Positions 8,495 through 17,445 of a stretch of 64,000 nucleotides of DNA are shown one piece after another. How positions within the stretch are numbered: the first letter of the stretch is position 1; each line of letters starts with the position of its first letter. The stretch covers positions 1 through 64,000 of the forward strand of contig SUWE01000008.1 of the NCBI GenBank assembly GCA_015061615.1, given 5' to 3'. Below the pieces are notes generated by a model that had not been told where the DNA came from, made no database searches, and saw only the letters and a list, made by a program, of their open reading frames with translations. The position numbers and the translations under genes were made by a program. This DNA is from Lentisphaerota bacterium (lineage in GTDB: Bacteria; Verrucomicrobiota; Lentisphaeria; Victivallales; Victivallaceae).

Positions 8495-9238
8495 TCAAAA
8501 TGACACTTTAACGTCACCGGATATTGCGGTCGGTGGCGCCATCACCTGAATCCCGGCTGGCACGCTCCAATCACGCTCCCATGTCCGCAGAAGCAGCGGA
8601 TCAGTGTCTCCGCCCCACGGATTGAGGTCGATTATCAGAAAACCTTTTGAGGAAGTGATATAAACATCCATTACCAAAGTATCCACAGGCAAACGCCAAA
8701 CTGTCTTTTTGACAAACTCGACAGCCTGTTTCCAATATTTATCCTTGACACCTTCCAAACGGCGGTAATGACGGTTCAAATGGTACTGACTCATCGCAGA
8801 AAGTTCACCTTTGTAAATAAACAACCGGAACTCTCTTGCTCTGGTGATCCTGCGGAACGGACGCAGACAAATATATTCGACCTTGCCTTCAGCCGCAGCC
8901 TTGGCAATTTTCTTGCTTTGAAGCAAATAGAAAAGCGCACTTCTTGGGGAATAAACCGCACCGCGTTTATTTTCAAAACGTTCTGTATCAGTTGGAGCGC
9001 AACTGTCAACAAAAACAAATGCATTGCCGGGAATATCTGCAAGCGGCTCAATCAGCTCGCTCATCATCTCTTTTCCCTGAGAAGAATAAAGAAACGCCCT
9101 TGCTTCTTCTTCATCCATCCCCCGGGATAACGCTTCAATCATGAAATCTTGCAATTTCACAAATTTGGTATGCCATGTAAAAGGTTCCAAAGCAGTGTAC
9201 CATTCATTGGTACGGAAAATATTACTGGACTGACTCAT
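8495..9238 (-). CDS. CDC123/D123-like ATP-grasp family protein
   Basis: REFRLFIYKGELSAMSQYHLNRHYRRLEG...LVMDVYITSSKGFLIIDLNPWGGDTDPLLLRTWERDW follows the eukaryotic CDC123 core pattern EFRxFV...ISQR...FDxYxDxxGKxxLIDFNPxGxxTDxLLFTWEEL. Confidence 0.8.
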   Translation of the reverse strand: MSQSSNIFRTNEWYTALEPFTWHTKFVKLQDFMIEALSRGMDEEEARAFLYSSQGKEMMSELIEPLADIPGNAFVFVDSCAPTDTERFENKRGAVYSPRSALFYLLQSKKIAKAAAEGKVEYICLRPFRRITRAREFRLFIYKGELSAMSQYHLNRHYRRLEGVKDKYWKQAVEFVKKTVWRLPVDTLVMDVYITSSKGFLIIDLNPWGGDTDPLLLRTWERDWSVPAGIQVMAPPTAISGDVKVSF

Positions 9239-10151
9239 GATTCTCTCCTTTACCTGAATTATCCGGATTATCCGGATTCTGTATCAGGTATTTAAGTACA
9301 ACAAAAAGATATATGACCCAACCGATCATAAGCAAATTTGTAAAATAAGAGTCCCCCGGCAGTTGGAATGCGGGGAAGAAACTGACGACAGCCAGCACCG
9401 GGAACGCAGTGTAGAGAGCGATCTTCCATAACTGACTGAACGTTATAAACTTTGATCTGCCTGCCGAAAAAACTTTGAACAACGAAGAGAAGAAAAAAGT
9501 TATAAACGCAATCATAAAGAAACTGAGAATGAAATATTCCATTGCAACGGTGGCAGCAAAACCGACACGGAGCATGGCAAAAACCTGAATACTGCTGACT
9601 TCTTCAGGATTTTCCGGCAATTTCCACTTTGCATCAGTTTTCAAATCAACAAGATTGAAAAACAGCTTTTTCATCTCATTGAACTTGATATCTTTTTCCG
9701 GAAGAACCGTTTCGCCATCCGCACGGTAAACGGTAACATTCCAGAGTTCGCCATTACGGAAGAAAAATCCGAATGCTGATGAACTCCACAAAAAGAACCA
9801 GTTGCGGTCACGGAAAAAATCATCCTGATATATTTTTTTATCACCGGATGCCACATAAACGAGAGCAGAATTGTACGGCAACTCCTGCCAACGGCTCCGT
9901 TGCGGCTCTATTCCGGGAAATATACCTTCGGAAGAAAAAGTCAAATGATTACCAAAAATTTTGGAAAATTCGGCTTGAGCCGCTTTCCAACGGTAATTGA
10001 TCAAAAAATAATTGCAAATCCCGATAAAAAACGAACAGAAAAAACAGAGAAGAAAAAAGTGCCAAACCACCCTGCCCCAGGAATGTTTCACCAGTTCCCG
10101 GCAGCAGTACGGACCGCTGCATATTTCAAACAAGGAACGGAAAAAGCCCAT
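9222..10151 (-). CDS. Integral membrane protein (possibly DUF1189-like)
   Basis: One N-terminal and several C-terminal hydrophobic segments; 17-bp overlap with the CDC123-like gene. Confidence 0.5.
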   Translation of the reverse strand: MGFFRSLFEICSGPYCCRELVKHSWGRVVWHFFLLCFFCSFFIGICNYFLINYRWKAAQAEFSKIFGNHLTFSSEGIFPGIEPQRSRWQELPYNSALVYVASGDKKIYQDDFFRDRNWFFLWSSSAFGFFFRNGELWNVTVYRADGETVLPEKDIKFNEMKKLFFNLVDLKTDAKWKLPENPEEVSSIQVFAMLRVGFAATVAMEYFILSFFMIAFITFFFSSLFKVFSAGRSKFITFSQLWKIALYTAFPVLAVVSFFPAFQLPGDSYFTNLLMIGWVIYLFVVLKYLIQNPDNPDNSGKGENHESVQ

Positions 10152-10153
10152 TT

Positions 10154-10738
10154 TTATTTGAACCTCCGGTAATTACAACTCTGTCCGGCACTCTTCAACC
10201 GGTTGATATCTCCGCGCACACGACGCTCTACATCGGGAGCTAAACGATCAGTAAACAGGAAACCATCCAAATGGTCAAGTTCATGCTGAATACAGCGCGC
10301 AAGAAGACCGCCGCACTCATATTCAAAAAATTCACCTTCAAGAGTCTGCGCCCGGAATACGACGGTTTCCGGACGGACGACCGGGGCATAGATGCCCGGC
10401 ACTGACAAACACCCTTCCTCGCCTTCGACAAGATTACTTGAGCGCATGACAATTTCCGGATTGATAACAGCAAGCGGCATTTTCGGCAGCAAAAACGCCT
10501 CTCCGGGAGTACCGGTATTCCGTTCTGCGGGAACATCGAAAACTACCAGCCTTAAAGATTTGCCGTATTGAGGAGCAGCAAGACCAATTCCGTTGAAATA
10601 ACGCATTGCCTGCATCATCTCTTTGGCAAGCTGACGGATTTCCGGGGTGACAACAGCAATCGGCTCAGCGATCTTTTTCAAGACCGCTGCACCGACAGTG
10701 TAGACAACAGAAGATTCTTTTTGTTTTTTCAAAAACAT
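10154..10738 (-). CDS. def: Peptide deformylase
   Basis: GIGLAAPQYG, EGCLSVPG, QHELDHLDG motifs; start at MFLKKQKE. Confidence 0.95.
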   Translation of the reverse strand: MFLKKQKESSVVYTVGAAVLKKIAEPIAVVTPEIRQLAKEMMQAMRYFNGIGLAAPQYGKSLRLVVFDVPAERNTGTPGEAFLLPKMPLAVINPEIVMRSSNLVEGEEGCLSVPGIYAPVVRPETVVFRAQTLEGEFFEYECGGLLARCIQHELDHLDGFLFTDRLAPDVERRVRGDINRLKSAGQSCNYRRFK

Positions 10739-10742
10739 ACCG

Positions 10743-12377
10743 TTATTTAGCCGCAGGAGCGGCAGTTGCAGATTCCGGAATTGCCGGAGCATTATTTTTC
10801 TTGGGGAACTCGCGTTTGATATCCGGAGCCTTTACAGACTCAGTCTGAGCGCCGGCATTGCCGCTTTCCGCAGAAGCGACAGCTTCTTTCACACCGTCAA
10901 GTCCGGGGTAACGCTCATCACTCTCTTCACCGAGGTAATAATTTGCGCCCTGACCGCCGACCACCGAGGTAAGCTGCGCCTTGGCATTTTGAACATTGAT
11001 ATAACTTGATGCCAAAGCAGTCTCTGCATCAACGAGGTCGCGCTGCGCCTCATTGAGACGGGTCAACTCAGCTTTACCGGCACGATATTCTTCGTCAACG
11101 AGCCTTCTCTGTTCAGCAGAAAGAGAACGGATCTTAGCATAAAGTTTGGTTTTTTTCACATTCTGAACATAATTCGCGTACGCGGTACGCACTTCACTGA
11201 CAACAGCAAACCACTGAGATGCAACTGAATATTCCGCAACCGCACGCTGAGCTTTAGCTTCGCGCAACTGATTAAGACGGATCGCTCCGTTAAAAATCAC
11301 CCAATCGGCAGTAATTCCCATGGACAATCCCATGTTGTCATGGAACCGGCTGATTTCACCTGTGGAGTAACCTTTACGGTTATTGGTGGTATAAGTCCAG
11401 GCAAAGTAACCGTTGATTTCCGGAGAATATGCGCCCCATGCCTGATACACCTGATAGTTCGCAATATTCAACTGTTCACGATAAGCCTTGAGGTCGGGAC
11501 GGTTGGCAAGAGCAGCATCAAGATAGAGTTCCACAGCCGGCAGTTCAGCAAATTCCGATTTGTAATCAGAGGGGAATTTGATATGAGATGGAAGTACGCC
11601 TTCTGGATATCCCATCAACTGAGCAAGAGCATAAATCGCAACTTCATACTGATAGTCGGCACCGACGAGATTGACTTCAGCAGAGTTTACATAAATTTCA
11701 AAGTTCAAAACATCGCTGAGCGGAGCGGCACCGGCTTCAAATTTATGACGGGTATTTTCCAAAGAACTCTTCTGAAAGTCGCGGTCTTCAGAGGCAATCC
11801 GGCGATTTTCGATCGCCAGCAGAACCGTGTTATACGCATACGCGACAGAAAGCATCATCGTCCGGCAGGCATTTTCTTCCAGTTTTGCCTGATAATTGAA
11901 GTTGCTTTTAGCAGCCATCAAGCGGAAAAGACGGGCAAAACCATCAAAAATCAGCATATTTGCACGAATGCCGGTAGTCGTTGTAAACGAGTGGTCACGG
12001 GTGGAGTGACCTTCCAAATCCGGATATTCCTCCTCATCATAGTTCAACATCCACCTTGCGGAATAATCCATATCAAAACTGGCTGTGATCGTCGGAGAAT
12101 ACGCGCCCCATGCCTGCAAATACTTCAAACGCGCAGCCTGCATTGAATGATAGGCGGAAATATAAGTCGGATTGTTTTTGATGGCAATCCGCTGTGCTTC
12201 ACGCAGGGTCAGGACAGAAATATCCTTGAACATATCATCAGAAGAGTCCTTCTGACGCTGCGTGTAACTCTCTGAAAGAGTTGCAATGGCAGGCTCTTTA
12301 TAACTGTAACATCCGGAGAGAGCGACCAGCGCAGCAGCAAAGGCGCCCCCCAACAACCTGACTTGAACTTTTTTCAT
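10743..12377 (-). CDS. TolC-family outer membrane efflux lipoprotein
   Basis: Lipobox VALSGC; two repeated TolC-type halves (AWGAYSPTITASFD / AWGAYSPEINGYFAW), helical coiled segments, EEYRAGKAELTRLNEAQRDLVDAE. Confidence 0.85.
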   Translation of the reverse strand: MKKVQVRLLGGAFAAALVALSGCYSYKEPAIATLSESYTQRQKDSSDDMFKDISVLTLREAQRIAIKNNPTYISAYHSMQAARLKYLQAWGAYSPTITASFDMDYSARWMLNYDEEEYPDLEGHSTRDHSFTTTTGIRANMLIFDGFARLFRLMAAKSNFNYQAKLEENACRTMMLSVAYAYNTVLLAIENRRIASEDRDFQKSSLENTRHKFEAGAAPLSDVLNFEIYVNSAEVNLVGADYQYEVAIYALAQLMGYPEGVLPSHIKFPSDYKSEFAELPAVELYLDAALANRPDLKAYREQLNIANYQVYQAWGAYSPEINGYFAWTYTTNNRKGYSTGEISRFHDNMGLSMGITADWVIFNGAIRLNQLREAKAQRAVAEYSVASQWFAVVSEVRTAYANYVQNVKKTKLYAKIRSLSAEQRRLVDEEYRAGKAELTRLNEAQRDLVDAETALASSYINVQNAKAQLTSVVGGQGANYYLGEESDERYPGLDGVKEAVASAESGNAGAQTESVKAPDIKREFPKKNNAPAIPESATAAPAAK

Positions 12378-12535
12378 TCTCACATTTAACTCCATAAAAT
12401 ATATTAAGTCAACTTAAATATTTAGTATAATGTAGCATATTTTTTGTTTTTTACAAGAGCTATTTTTACAAACACTGACAAAAAGTGATTAAAAATCCTC
12501 ATTGTTGAAATTAAACAACATTTTTCCGGATTCTA

Positions 12536-12978: not shown

Positions 12979-13707
12979 TCAAAGAACTTTGTTAAAAAAA
13001 TCACGGATACGCTGATTTGATGAGTTCATCAAAACTTCAGGCGCCCCTGTTTCCATAATGGCACCTCTGTCCATAAAAACCATGCGGTCGGCAACTTCAG
13101 CGGCAAAACCGATTTCATGTGTAACGACAAGCATCGTCATGCCTTCTTTTGCCAACTCTTTCATCAGCGATTGAACTTCACCTACCATCTCCGGGTCAAG
13201 TGCCGAAGTCGGTTCATCAAACAACAGAACTTCCGGATGCATTGCACACGCACGAACAATAGCGACACGCTGTTTCTGTCCGCCGGAAAGCTGCATCGGA
13301 TACGCTTTTGCTTTATCAGCCAGACCGATTCTCTCTAAAAGTTCATGCGCCTCTTTTTTTGCCTGACGGTGAGAAAGCAATCCGGTTTGTACCGGAGCCA
13401 ATGTGATATTATCAAGAATCGTCAAATGCGGAAAAAGATTGAAATGCTGAAAAACCATTCCGACTTTTCCACGGTAGCGGTTTATTTTCCGCATGGAAAC
13501 ACATTTGCCATGAAACAGGACTTTGCCGGAGGTCGGTATTTCCAACATATTCAAACAGCGCAGAAACGTACTTTTTCCGGAACCGGACGGTCCTACGATA
13601 AAAACAGACTCTCCCTTGCTTACCGACAACGACACATTGTCAACAGCGCGGAGGGCAGGAAAATCTTTAACAAGATCACGGGCTTCCAAAATTATTGAAT
13701 CATTCAT
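12979..13707 (-). CDS. Polar amino-acid ABC transporter ATP-binding protein
   Basis: GPSGSGKSTFLRCLN Walker A, LSGGQKQRVAIVRA signature, LLFDEPTSALDPEMVGEV Walker B. Confidence 0.95.
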   Translation of the reverse strand: MNDSIILEARDLVKDFPALRAVDNVSLSVSKGESVFIVGPSGSGKSTFLRCLNMLEIPTSGKVLFHGKCVSMRKINRYRGKVGMVFQHFNLFPHLTILDNITLAPVQTGLLSHRQAKKEAHELLERIGLADKAKAYPMQLSGGQKQRVAIVRACAMHPEVLLFDEPTSALDPEMVGEVQSLMKELAKEGMTMLVVTHEIGFAAEVADRMVFMDRGAIMETGAPEVLMNSSNQRIRDFFNKVL

Positions 13708-15136
13708 TTTTCTTCAACCTTTTCTCCAGTATCTCCAGCAATTTGGAGAAAATCACAACCATAACAAGGTAAACCAGCGCAACCGCGATCAACGGCTGAA
13801 ATGCGTTGTAAGTTTGACTGCGGATGATATCTCCGCCCTTTGTCAAATCCTGCAATGCGATAAAACCGCACACACTGGTCTCTTTCAGCAATACAATGAA
13901 CTCATTGCCCAACGCAGGCAAAACATTTTTCAGTGCCTGAGGCAGAATGACCATTCCCATGGTCTGACTGTAATTCAAACCGAGACTTCTGCCGGCTTCC
14001 ATTTGTCCGCGATCAATGGACATAATGCCGGAACGGATGATTTCTGCAACATAAGCGCCGGAATTTATCCCGAAAGCGAGAATTGCAACCATTATCTTAT
14101 CAACATCGACCGAACCGAAGACCACAAAATATATTATCAACAGCTGCAGTACGACCGGAGTTCCCCGGATAACAGTAAGGTATACGCGGCAGACAAAGTC
14201 CGCTATTTTAAATTTTCCGGTCTGATCTGCTGTACTGCGGATGATCGCAACAACGAAACCGATAAGGACACCCAGAATAACAGAACTGAACGCAACGGAT
14301 ATGGTAACGATGAAACCATCAACAAGATAACGCCAACGCTCATTTTTCACAAAGTTGGTATAAAAATCTGCTTTGAATCCGGAAGCGGCATCTTCCTGCG
14401 CAGAATCAACACTTTTTTGTGTACGCTCATTATATTTGTCCACAATTTCAACGATAGTTTTATCCAAATGCATTCCGGTCAAACCGTCATTGATCATTTT
14501 AAGCAGCTCCTGCCGACCTTTGGGAACAGCAAACGCATACTCTTCAAATGTCAAAGGCTTTTCAAGAATTTTAAGCTGCGGATTTTTTGCGACATGCACC
14601 ATCGCCGGATCATTATCAAGAACGACAACATCAAGTTTATTGCGATTCAATGCCGCAACAGCCATGCTGGCATCACTGAAACGCTGCGGCTCACCGATTT
14701 TTTCCGTAACGTAAGAATCTCCGGTCGTACCATGCTGCACACCGATACGCAAACCTTTAAGATCCGATACTCCCTGCACTTTTGAGTTCTCAGGAACAAT
14801 AATGACCTGCTTGGCGGTAATATAAGGAATTGAAAAATCCACCATTTTTTTGCGGTCTTCGGTAATTGTGATCGCCGAAGCGGCAATGTCACCTTTCCCG
14901 GTTTGAACGGCGGCAATGATCGAATCGAATTTCATATCTTCAACGACCATCTTACAGTTTCCGCGTCTGAGAACTTCACGCAGGATATCAATATCAATTC
15001 CCACGATTTTATCTCCCTCATGATACTCATACGGAGGAAAATCCGCTGAAGTCACCACGCGCAGAATCTGCTCAGATGCAGCATTGCAGAGAAAAAATAC
15101 CGCAAAAACTGAAAGTAAAAATATTTTCTTCATCAT
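13700..15136 (-). CDS. Amino-acid ABC transporter, substrate-binding and permease domains fused
   Basis: N-terminal signal peptide and SBP3 domain (VVTSADFPPYEYHEGDKIVGIDIDILREV), then a HisM/GlnP-type permease (RGTPVVLQLLIIYF...GRSLGLNYSQTMGMVILPQALKNVLPALGNEFI). Confidence 0.93.
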   Translation of the reverse strand: MMKKIFLLSVFAVFFLCNAASEQILRVVTSADFPPYEYHEGDKIVGIDIDILREVLRRGNCKMVVEDMKFDSIIAAVQTGKGDIAASAITITEDRKKMVDFSIPYITAKQVIIVPENSKVQGVSDLKGLRIGVQHGTTGDSYVTEKIGEPQRFSDASMAVAALNRNKLDVVVLDNDPAMVHVAKNPQLKILEKPLTFEEYAFAVPKGRQELLKMINDGLTGMHLDKTIVEIVDKYNERTQKSVDSAQEDAASGFKADFYTNFVKNERWRYLVDGFIVTISVAFSSVILGVLIGFVVAIIRSTADQTGKFKIADFVCRVYLTVIRGTPVVLQLLIIYFVVFGSVDVDKIMVAILAFGINSGAYVAEIIRSGIMSIDRGQMEAGRSLGLNYSQTMGMVILPQALKNVLPALGNEFIVLLKETSVCGFIALQDLTKGGDIIRSQTYNAFQPLIAVALVYLVMVVIFSKLLEILEKRLKKNE

Positions 15137-15894: not shown

Positions 15895-17445
15895 TCACCG
15901 ATAGTAATTTAATTTTTTCTCAATCGCAGACATAGCCGCTGCAACAAGAAAGTTGAACACGTAGTAGAACACTCCGGCAACGACAAACGGCATCATGGAT
16001 GCTGTCGCGCTGGCAATCTGCTTGGCGATAGTAAACATTTCAAGAACAGAGAGTGAAAATGCAAGCGAAGTATCTTTCACCAGAGTGATGATTTCATTAG
16101 TCATCGGCGGCAAAATCCTTTTGACAACCTGAGGAAGAATGATACGGAAGAATGTCTGCATTCTGGAGTATCCAAGCACGCATGCAGCTTCATACTGCCC
16201 CTGAGCAACAGACTCGATCCCGCCGCGGTAAATTTCGGCAAAATAAGCTGCATAATTAAACGAAAAACCGATAATGACAGCAATAAAGCGGTAATCTACA
16301 CCCCAAAGTGAGAGTTTTGACAACTGTATACCGAATATATAATACGGACCGAAAAACCATACAAGCAGTTGAAGCATCAGCGGAGTTCCGCGCATTACTG
16401 AAATGAAACAGCGGAAAATCGTACTGACAAACCTGTTTCCGCACATTCTTCCCCATGCCACAAGCAAACCAAGCGGCAAAGCAAACAAAAGAGTCAGAAC
16501 GAATATCAAAACAGACACTCCAAGTCCGCTGAAAAGCTCGCTTACAACAGAAAAAAGCCGGACTTTATTTTCTGAATCAACAACTTCAGAGTTTTTCCTG
16601 TTCCCGCTTATTTTGCCGAGCGCCATTTTATTTTCACCGTCAAAATATTTTGCAGAAATCTGAGCGGCAGTACCGTCGGCAGCCATTTCAAGCAAGGTAT
16701 TCTGAACCGCATCGCGCAGTGCGGTATCTCCTTTGCGGAACCCGATACCGTAATTCTCCGTCATTATGATTTCGTCAAGTATCCGGAATCCGCCGTTTTT
16801 CATTTTCTCCTTTGCAACGCCGATATCCATGGCAACCGCATCGACACTGCCGGATTCAAGCATCATCACAGCATTGTTATAGTCAGGAGCAACGATCAGT
16901 TTCTTGAAGGTTTTACCAAGTTTACTGCGCTCACCGCCGTCAGAAAGAGCTTTTTGAACCGGAGTATCTGTTTGGACTGCGACGTTGAGCTGCCGGAGAT
17001 CACTGAGTTTTTTGACAGAAGAATTTTTTCTGACCATCACGACCTGCTCATTTACCACATAGGGATCACTCCACGTGTAGGCATGTTCCCTGCCATTTAT
17101 AGTAAAACCGTTCCAGATACAATCGATCATGCCGCTGTTAAGCTCACTGTCCTTTGCATCCCAGTTGATTGCTTTCAGCTCAATTTTCCAATTATTCCTC
17201 CGGGCAACTTCTCTTGCCAAATCAAGGTCAAATCCGCAATACTTGCCATCTTTAACATAACCGTAAGGGGGGAAGTTGGCATCAAATCCCACTGCAAAAC
17301 GCCGACCTTCAGCAAAGGCAGCAAGACTGAATAAAAACACTGCAGCAACGACAAATAAACTTTTGATTTTTCTCAAAACAAAAACTCCCTGAATCATATT
17401 AACACGGACGCCGGGTGCGCGAAGAACGGACATCCGGAAAGTCAT
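15895..17445 (-). CDS. Second amino-acid ABC transporter, substrate-binding and permease domains fused
   Basis: RRFAVGFDANFPPYGYVKDGKYCGFDLDLAREVARR (SBP), then MRGTPLMLQLLVWFF...AACVLGYSRMQTFFRIILPQVVKRILPPMTNEIITLVKDTSL (permease). Start codon uncertain. Confidence 0.92.
   Translation of the reverse strand: MTFRMSVLRAPGVRVNMIQGVFVLRKIKSLFVVAAVFLFSLAAFAEGRRFAVGFDANFPPYGYVKDGKYCGFDLDLAREVARRNNWKIELKAINWDAKDSELNSGMIDCIWNGFTINGREHAYTWSDPYVVNEQVVMVRKNSSVKKLSDLRQLNVAVQTDTPVQKALSDGGERSKLGKTFKKLIVAPDYNNAVMMLESGSVDAVAMDIGVAKEKMKNGGFRILDEIIMTENYGIGFRKGDTALRDAVQNTLLEMAADGTAAQISAKYFDGENKMALGKISGNRKNSEVVDSENKVRLFSVVSELFSGLGVSVLIFVLTLLFALPLGLLVAWGRMCGNRFVSTIFRCFISVMRGTPLMLQLLVWFFGPYYIFGIQLSKLSLWGVDYRFIAVIIGFSFNYAAYFAEIYRGGIESVAQGQYEAACVLGYSRMQTFFRIILPQVVKRILPPMTNEIITLVKDTSLAFSLSVLEMFTIAKQIASATASMMPFVVAGVFYYVFNFLVAAAMSAIEKKLNYYR

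Follow-up and report, generated by a model that had tools for sequence, protein, structure and literature searches.

In eukaryotes, the assembly of eIF2 is promoted by CDC123, which binds to domain III of the gamma subunit (PMC8844851). The protein binds ATP and has ATPase activity, and R111 of human CDC123 touches the beta and gamma phosphates of the nucleotide (PMC12860950). Other ligands of the human protein are K104 and the set D233/D246xN248 (PMC4431377). Bacterial CDC123 proteins, lentisphaeral ones among them, have been known since 2015, when Burroughs et al. listed lentisphaerae, including Lentisphaera araneosa, among the bacteria that bear the family (PMC4431377). The same study predicted a role for bacterial CDC123 in peptide or protein modification, assuming the lysines of the R2K clade and a setting in conflict systems, either T6SS-delivered or host-directed (PMC4431377). 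According to the published view, the CDC123 proteins of bacteria are conflict effectors of sporadic occurrence, and it was from this arsenal that eukaryotes recruited CDC123. The gene described here is of another sort: most families of Lentisphaeria have inherited it, and its ATP site is apparently rewired.

The locus lies in a 64,000-nt stretch of lentisphaeral DNA, hereafter the window, and its features are collected in Table 1. None of 500 shuffles of the D123 segment contained a full-length open frame, and both GC and GC3 of the gene are native, resembling those of its neighbors. The Pfam D123 profile (PF07065) matched residues 120–221 of the 247-aa protein (E = 3.1e-19; 69.7 bits, cut-off 24) and was likewise matched by all 60 aligned orthologs. 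With a class profile (A1) built from these 60 orthologs, human CDC123 (8phd) was found at E = 1.7e-19 over profile positions 49–214, a second, weak stretch of the match covering the N-terminal 'SAWYP' (WYP) segment, and fission-yeast CDC123 was found at about 1e-10. A phmmer search with the window protein also found human CDC123 (1.6e-7). C-lobe similarity to R2K.2 and R2K.3 (PF18299, PF14243) is weak, and the R2K_2 and R2K_3 Pfam profiles matched the window protein only below threshold.

Table 1. Coordinates of the D123 gene, its mapped residues and its upstream neighbors in the window.
Feature	Position	Strand	Remarks
CDC123/D123-family ATP-grasp protein gene	8495..9238	-	247 aa; ATG start
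Shine-Dalgarno-like AAAGGAGAG	9243..9251	-	upstream of D123 ATG
D191	8666..8668	-	equivalent of human D233; invariant, D in 60/60
D204-L205-N206	8621..8629	-	equivalent of human D246xN248; D 60/60, N 59/60
E136-F137-R138	8825..8833	-	arginine of first strand, kinase-like lobe; characteristic of ATP-grasp enzymes that form amides (PMC4431377)
Residues 74-84, FVFVDSCAPTD	8987..9019	-	aligned to human FPKLNWSAPRD; F76 at K104 position, T83 at R111 position
R129	8852..8854	-	invariant, 60/60; C, M, L in human, Aneurinibacillus, Tritonibacter proteins; candidate compensating basic residue
C-terminal tail GDVKVSF	8498..8518	-	kept almost throughout the group, but not in family f8
Multi-pass membrane protein gene	9222..10151	-	weak DUF1189/Yip1 similarity; 17-nt overlap with D123 start
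def, peptide deformylase	10154..10792	-	upstream of D123, same transcription direction
TolC-family outer membrane protein gene	10743..12395	-	upstream gene of run

An AlphaFold2 model computed from the 60-sequence alignment had a mean pLDDT of 95.3 and a pTM of 0.89. In a PDB structure search the model was closer to the CDC123 fold than to other ATP-grasp folds. All of its best 10 matches were CDC123 (E 1.3e-14 to 6.7e-13, query TM 0.73–0.79, 17–20% identity), whereas D-Ala-D-Ala ligases and RimK, which belong to the same ATP-grasp superfamily, followed with a query TM of at most 0.49 (0.34–0.49 among the 50 matches listed). Because CDC123 chains head the PDB list and other ATP-grasp proteins fall far below them, the identity of the window protein as a full-length CDC123 homolog is secure. 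Among viral models, the best match was Clandestinovirus Cdc123. No signal peptide was seen by inspection, and the protein is predicted to be a compact, cytosolic member of the CDC123 family with an ATP-grasp fold. An earlier note on this DNA, made from its letters only, had proposed a bacterial CDC123 homolog, which the Pfam match, the class profile and the fold matches all bear out. It had also stated that the C-terminal half follows the CDC123 ATP-grasp core; the peptides it quoted are indeed present, and the PF07065 match falls over this part of the protein. Both findings on which the note had made its assignment depend were obtained, PF07065 being returned by the profile search and the Mg/ATP ligands aligning with those of CDC123.

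The window protein resembles eukaryotic CDC123 (human 8phd/8phv, S. pombe 4zgn-4zgq) in its whole-length fold, its WYP-type N-terminus and the motifs APxD, EFR, MDxY, D-x-NP(W/F)G and TD...LL..W. Unlike the eukaryotic proteins, to which they are about 20% identical, lentisphaeral members have no disordered inserts, carry an invariant R129 and a GDVNVSF tail, and live where the eukaryotic client is missing, as bacteria to our knowledge have no eIF2. The D123 proteins of family f8 (L066, L067, L068) stop before the GDVNVSF tail that is common to nearly all others. In the ligand comparison that the earlier note had suggested, the D..D-x-NPWG residues align with human D233, D246 and N248, and throughout the alignment the predicted Mg ligands (D191, D204xN206) and R138 are conserved.

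The N-lobe of the lentisphaeral proteins differs from that of human CDC123, as the two clade-defining basic residues, K104 and R111, are both replaced group-wide in the aligned sequences. HMMER and MAFFT alignments agree, free of gaps, in placing human FPKLNWSAPRD opposite FVFVDSCAPTD, within which D78, P82 and D84 are invariant among orthologs. At position 76 (human K104) we found S in 25 sequences, F in 12, G in 9, C in 5, A in 4, H and L in 2 each and T in 1, and at position 83 (human R111) T in 56 of 60, the rest being S, D, I and V; neither position holds K or R in any of the 60. The group thus lacks, at positions 76 and 83 respectively, the first basic residue and the second K/R in the next loop by which the R2K clade is recognized, human R111 being taken as the second R2K residue from our reading of the published description (PMC4431377) together with the alignment. 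R135 is nearly invariant in orthologs and is also found in the Aneurinibacillus protein; with R129 it is a candidate for compensating the loss of K104 and R111.

Other bacterial CDC123 proteins (R2K.1) differ again. A search of 72,556 plasmids gave only two matches, from Aneurinibacillus (P0002) and Tritonibacter (P0003), which are homologous to the window protein and share its C-lobe ligand positions. They differ from it in having E for the first D of DxN and in retaining a basic residue at both N-lobe places (R and K in each). The genes of P0002 and P0003 adjoin WGR or SMI1/KNR4 genes, whereas lentisphaeral D123 in the taxonomic order of the window lies near def. On the 722-kb Aneurinibacillus plasmid (L185 5890–6687), the CDC123-like ATP-grasp gene comes directly after two WGR-domain genes, which is not a T6SS-type setting.

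PF07065 was detected in 51 of 61 relatives, including 27 of the 30 of high quality. A phyletic profile, which the earlier note had advised, placed it in 68 of 243 genomes sampled from the phylum: 68 of the 83 from the window's class, Lentisphaeria, and 0 of the 160 from other classes. A second sample of the class had D123 in 16 of 31 genomes, families f10 and f59–f62 being without it. The class profile, which is more sensitive than Pfam, found no D123 in families f5 and f10 or in genus g19; one genome, G054, is Pfam-negative, yet has a partial D123 by this profile. Absence from G184 and G205 was discounted, as the neighboring membrane-protein gene is also missing there and the locus may be unassembled. 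When 85,462 species genomes were scanned, 80 loci were returned, lentisphaeral wherever the organism was named. Among named strains, Victivallis vadensis DSM 14823 carries the gene. D123 is single copy, the sole exception being G155, whose gene lies in pieces on separate contigs. Since the protein tree follows taxonomy with 12 changes for 13 groups, which is as few as possible, the simplest reading is that a single-copy gene, present in an ancestor shared by most families of Lentisphaeria, was inherited vertically and lost several times. Placing D123 in the ancestor of the whole class depends on the branching of f10 and f59–f62. For some Lentisphaeria (f5, f10, f59–f62 and g19, from which it is absent), the gene is dispensable. 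Replacement of D123 by R2K.3 where D123 is missing was considered and rejected, as none of 37 class genomes tested had an R2K.3 gene above cut-off.

This inheritance bears on the proposal that D123 is a conflict gene, acting as a T6SS-linked toxin accessory or as a host-directed effector. Such a role is published for other bacterial CDC123 proteins (PMC4431377), and the Tritonibacter plasmid homolog does have SMI1/KNR4 and HNH nuclease genes as neighbors. Lentisphaeral D123, however, is a vertically inherited, single-copy gene with housekeeping neighbors, beside which no T6SS or polymorphic-toxin locus was found, and the T6SS sheath gene VipB is missing in 43 of 46 D123 carriers, among them the window's own assembly, which is 84.65% complete. 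PADLOC defence models gave no match, and no relatives of D123 were found in phage records or viral contigs. On the absence of VipB from most carriers and the gene neighborhoods, a T6SS or effector role was rejected; it is strongly disfavored and, in our estimate, very improbable. An origin from phages or plasmids was also rejected, there being no phage or viral matches and only the two distant plasmid homologs. With VipB absent from most carriers, no defence, phage or viral match, no signal peptide and a setting unlike that of the Tritonibacter gene, the lentisphaeral group makes up a third kind of bacterial CDC123, distinct from the others. The earlier note had reported that bacterial members were predicted to carry out peptide or protein modification. 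Such a prediction was indeed made in 2015, but the R2K lysines and the conflict setting that it assumed do not fit the lentisphaeral group, and the note was right to name no substrate.

Neighbors in the window were read separately from a survey of neighbors across loci. The gene run in the window's order consists of tolC, often gltX, then def, the membrane-protein gene and D123, and the membrane-protein gene is the adjacent upstream gene in 49 of 51 D123-bearing loci of the order. This membrane protein evolves fast, comes directly after def throughout the order and has relatives in families of the class that lack D123. Where D123 has been lost or moved (f3:g19, f1:g2 and f6; L206–L209 and L212–L214, whose ORFs were identified by inspecting their sequences), def and the membrane-protein gene are still paired. 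Together with the relatives in D123-less families, this persistence indicates that the pair is independent of D123, and the linkage of D123 to it may be only positional. The membrane protein was accordingly rejected as an obligate partner. In genus g19, which has no D123 (L206, L207, L208), a CCA-adding/poly(A) polymerase gene occupies the slot of D123 after the pair.

Outside the window's order, the neighbors of D123 differ between families. Family f11 has the order map, ffh, D123, AMP-binding ligase, pdxJ; families f12 and f13 have an AMP-binding ligase and/or aroF after D123. The gene follows a UDP-sugar dehydrogenase gene in f14 and, in f58, an ABC ATPase gene and a small lipoprotein-like one; in genome G041 of f6 it lies near LptD/LolA-like genes. 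Def, Map and Ffh all work at or near the ribosome exit tunnel. As neighbors they are suggestive of that site, a weak lead given that several unrelated neighborhoods were examined.

We tentatively favor, at a probability of roughly 40%, a housekeeping CDC123-like protein that would act, as eukaryotic CDC123 does, as a nucleotide-dependent protein-binding factor in maturation or assembly. Its Mg-nucleotide site would still be in use, other conserved basic residues (R129, R135 and K91/R92) making up a rebuilt phosphate clamp, and the process served may lie near nascent-chain processing or translation; it would not be a secreted weapon. Conserved metal ligands, the putatively rebuilt clamp and the housekeeping setting lead us to prefer such a binding factor to two other readings. 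A possible, though less probable, one is an active ATP-grasp ligase, forming an amide bond between a carboxylate, by way of an acyl phosphate intermediate, and an amine carried by a protein or small molecule; basic residues that have moved elsewhere would steady the phosphates. The residues that serve catalysis in amide-forming ATP-grasp enzymes, here D191, D204xN206 and R138, show little or no variation, the closest folds after CDC123 are those of D-Ala-D-Ala ligase and RimK, and invariant R129 with nearly invariant R135 could compensate for what is missing; moreover, D123 in families f11–f13 is often followed by the gene for an AMP-binding acyl ligase or by a biosynthetic one. Yet D123 has no constant enzyme partner beside it, both clade basic residues are lost in all 60 sequences, and we know of no demonstration of ligase activity for CDC123. 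What has been described for CDC123 is an ATPase (PMC12860950) and an assembly factor (PMC8844851).

Loss of the two N-lobe basic residues, with free variation at position 76, is also what one would expect of a pseudoenzyme that keeps the fold only as a binding scaffold and no longer binds nucleotide. We regard this as unlikely, as the acids that ligate the metal do not vary among 60 divergent sequences, a pattern hard to explain unless a metal-nucleotide site is maintained. The preferred reading of a nucleotide-dependent binding factor can be made more specific by analogy. EF-Tu and SelB have barrels homologous to domain III of eIF2 gamma; in EF-Tu, the homologous counterpart of this CDC123-binding domain is the third domain. 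The inherited bacterial CDC123 might then help a translational GTPase such as EF-Tu, or else nascent chains leaving the ribosome, to mature or assemble, an idea we offer as a long shot. SelB itself was excluded as a dedicated or general client, since no more than 5 of 110 genomes of the class had it above cut-off, unrelated to the presence of D123.

If an EF-Tu or nascent-chain factor were the correct answer, the eukaryotic role in eIF2 assembly would derive from an older, translation-linked function and not from a toxin. A class that inherits single-copy CDC123 in housekeeping operons represents another kind of source for the eukaryotic protein than the conflict arsenal. Lentisphaeria are also a natural system in which to find the general activity of CDC123 without eIF2, and the group-wide loss of two clade-defining basic residues provides a test of CDC123 as an enzyme versus a nucleotide-gated binding protein. 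Elsewhere in the window, minus-strand positions 13700–15136 and 15895–17445 encode two amino-acid ABC transporters in which periplasmic binding protein and permease are fused, with an ATPase gene beside each.
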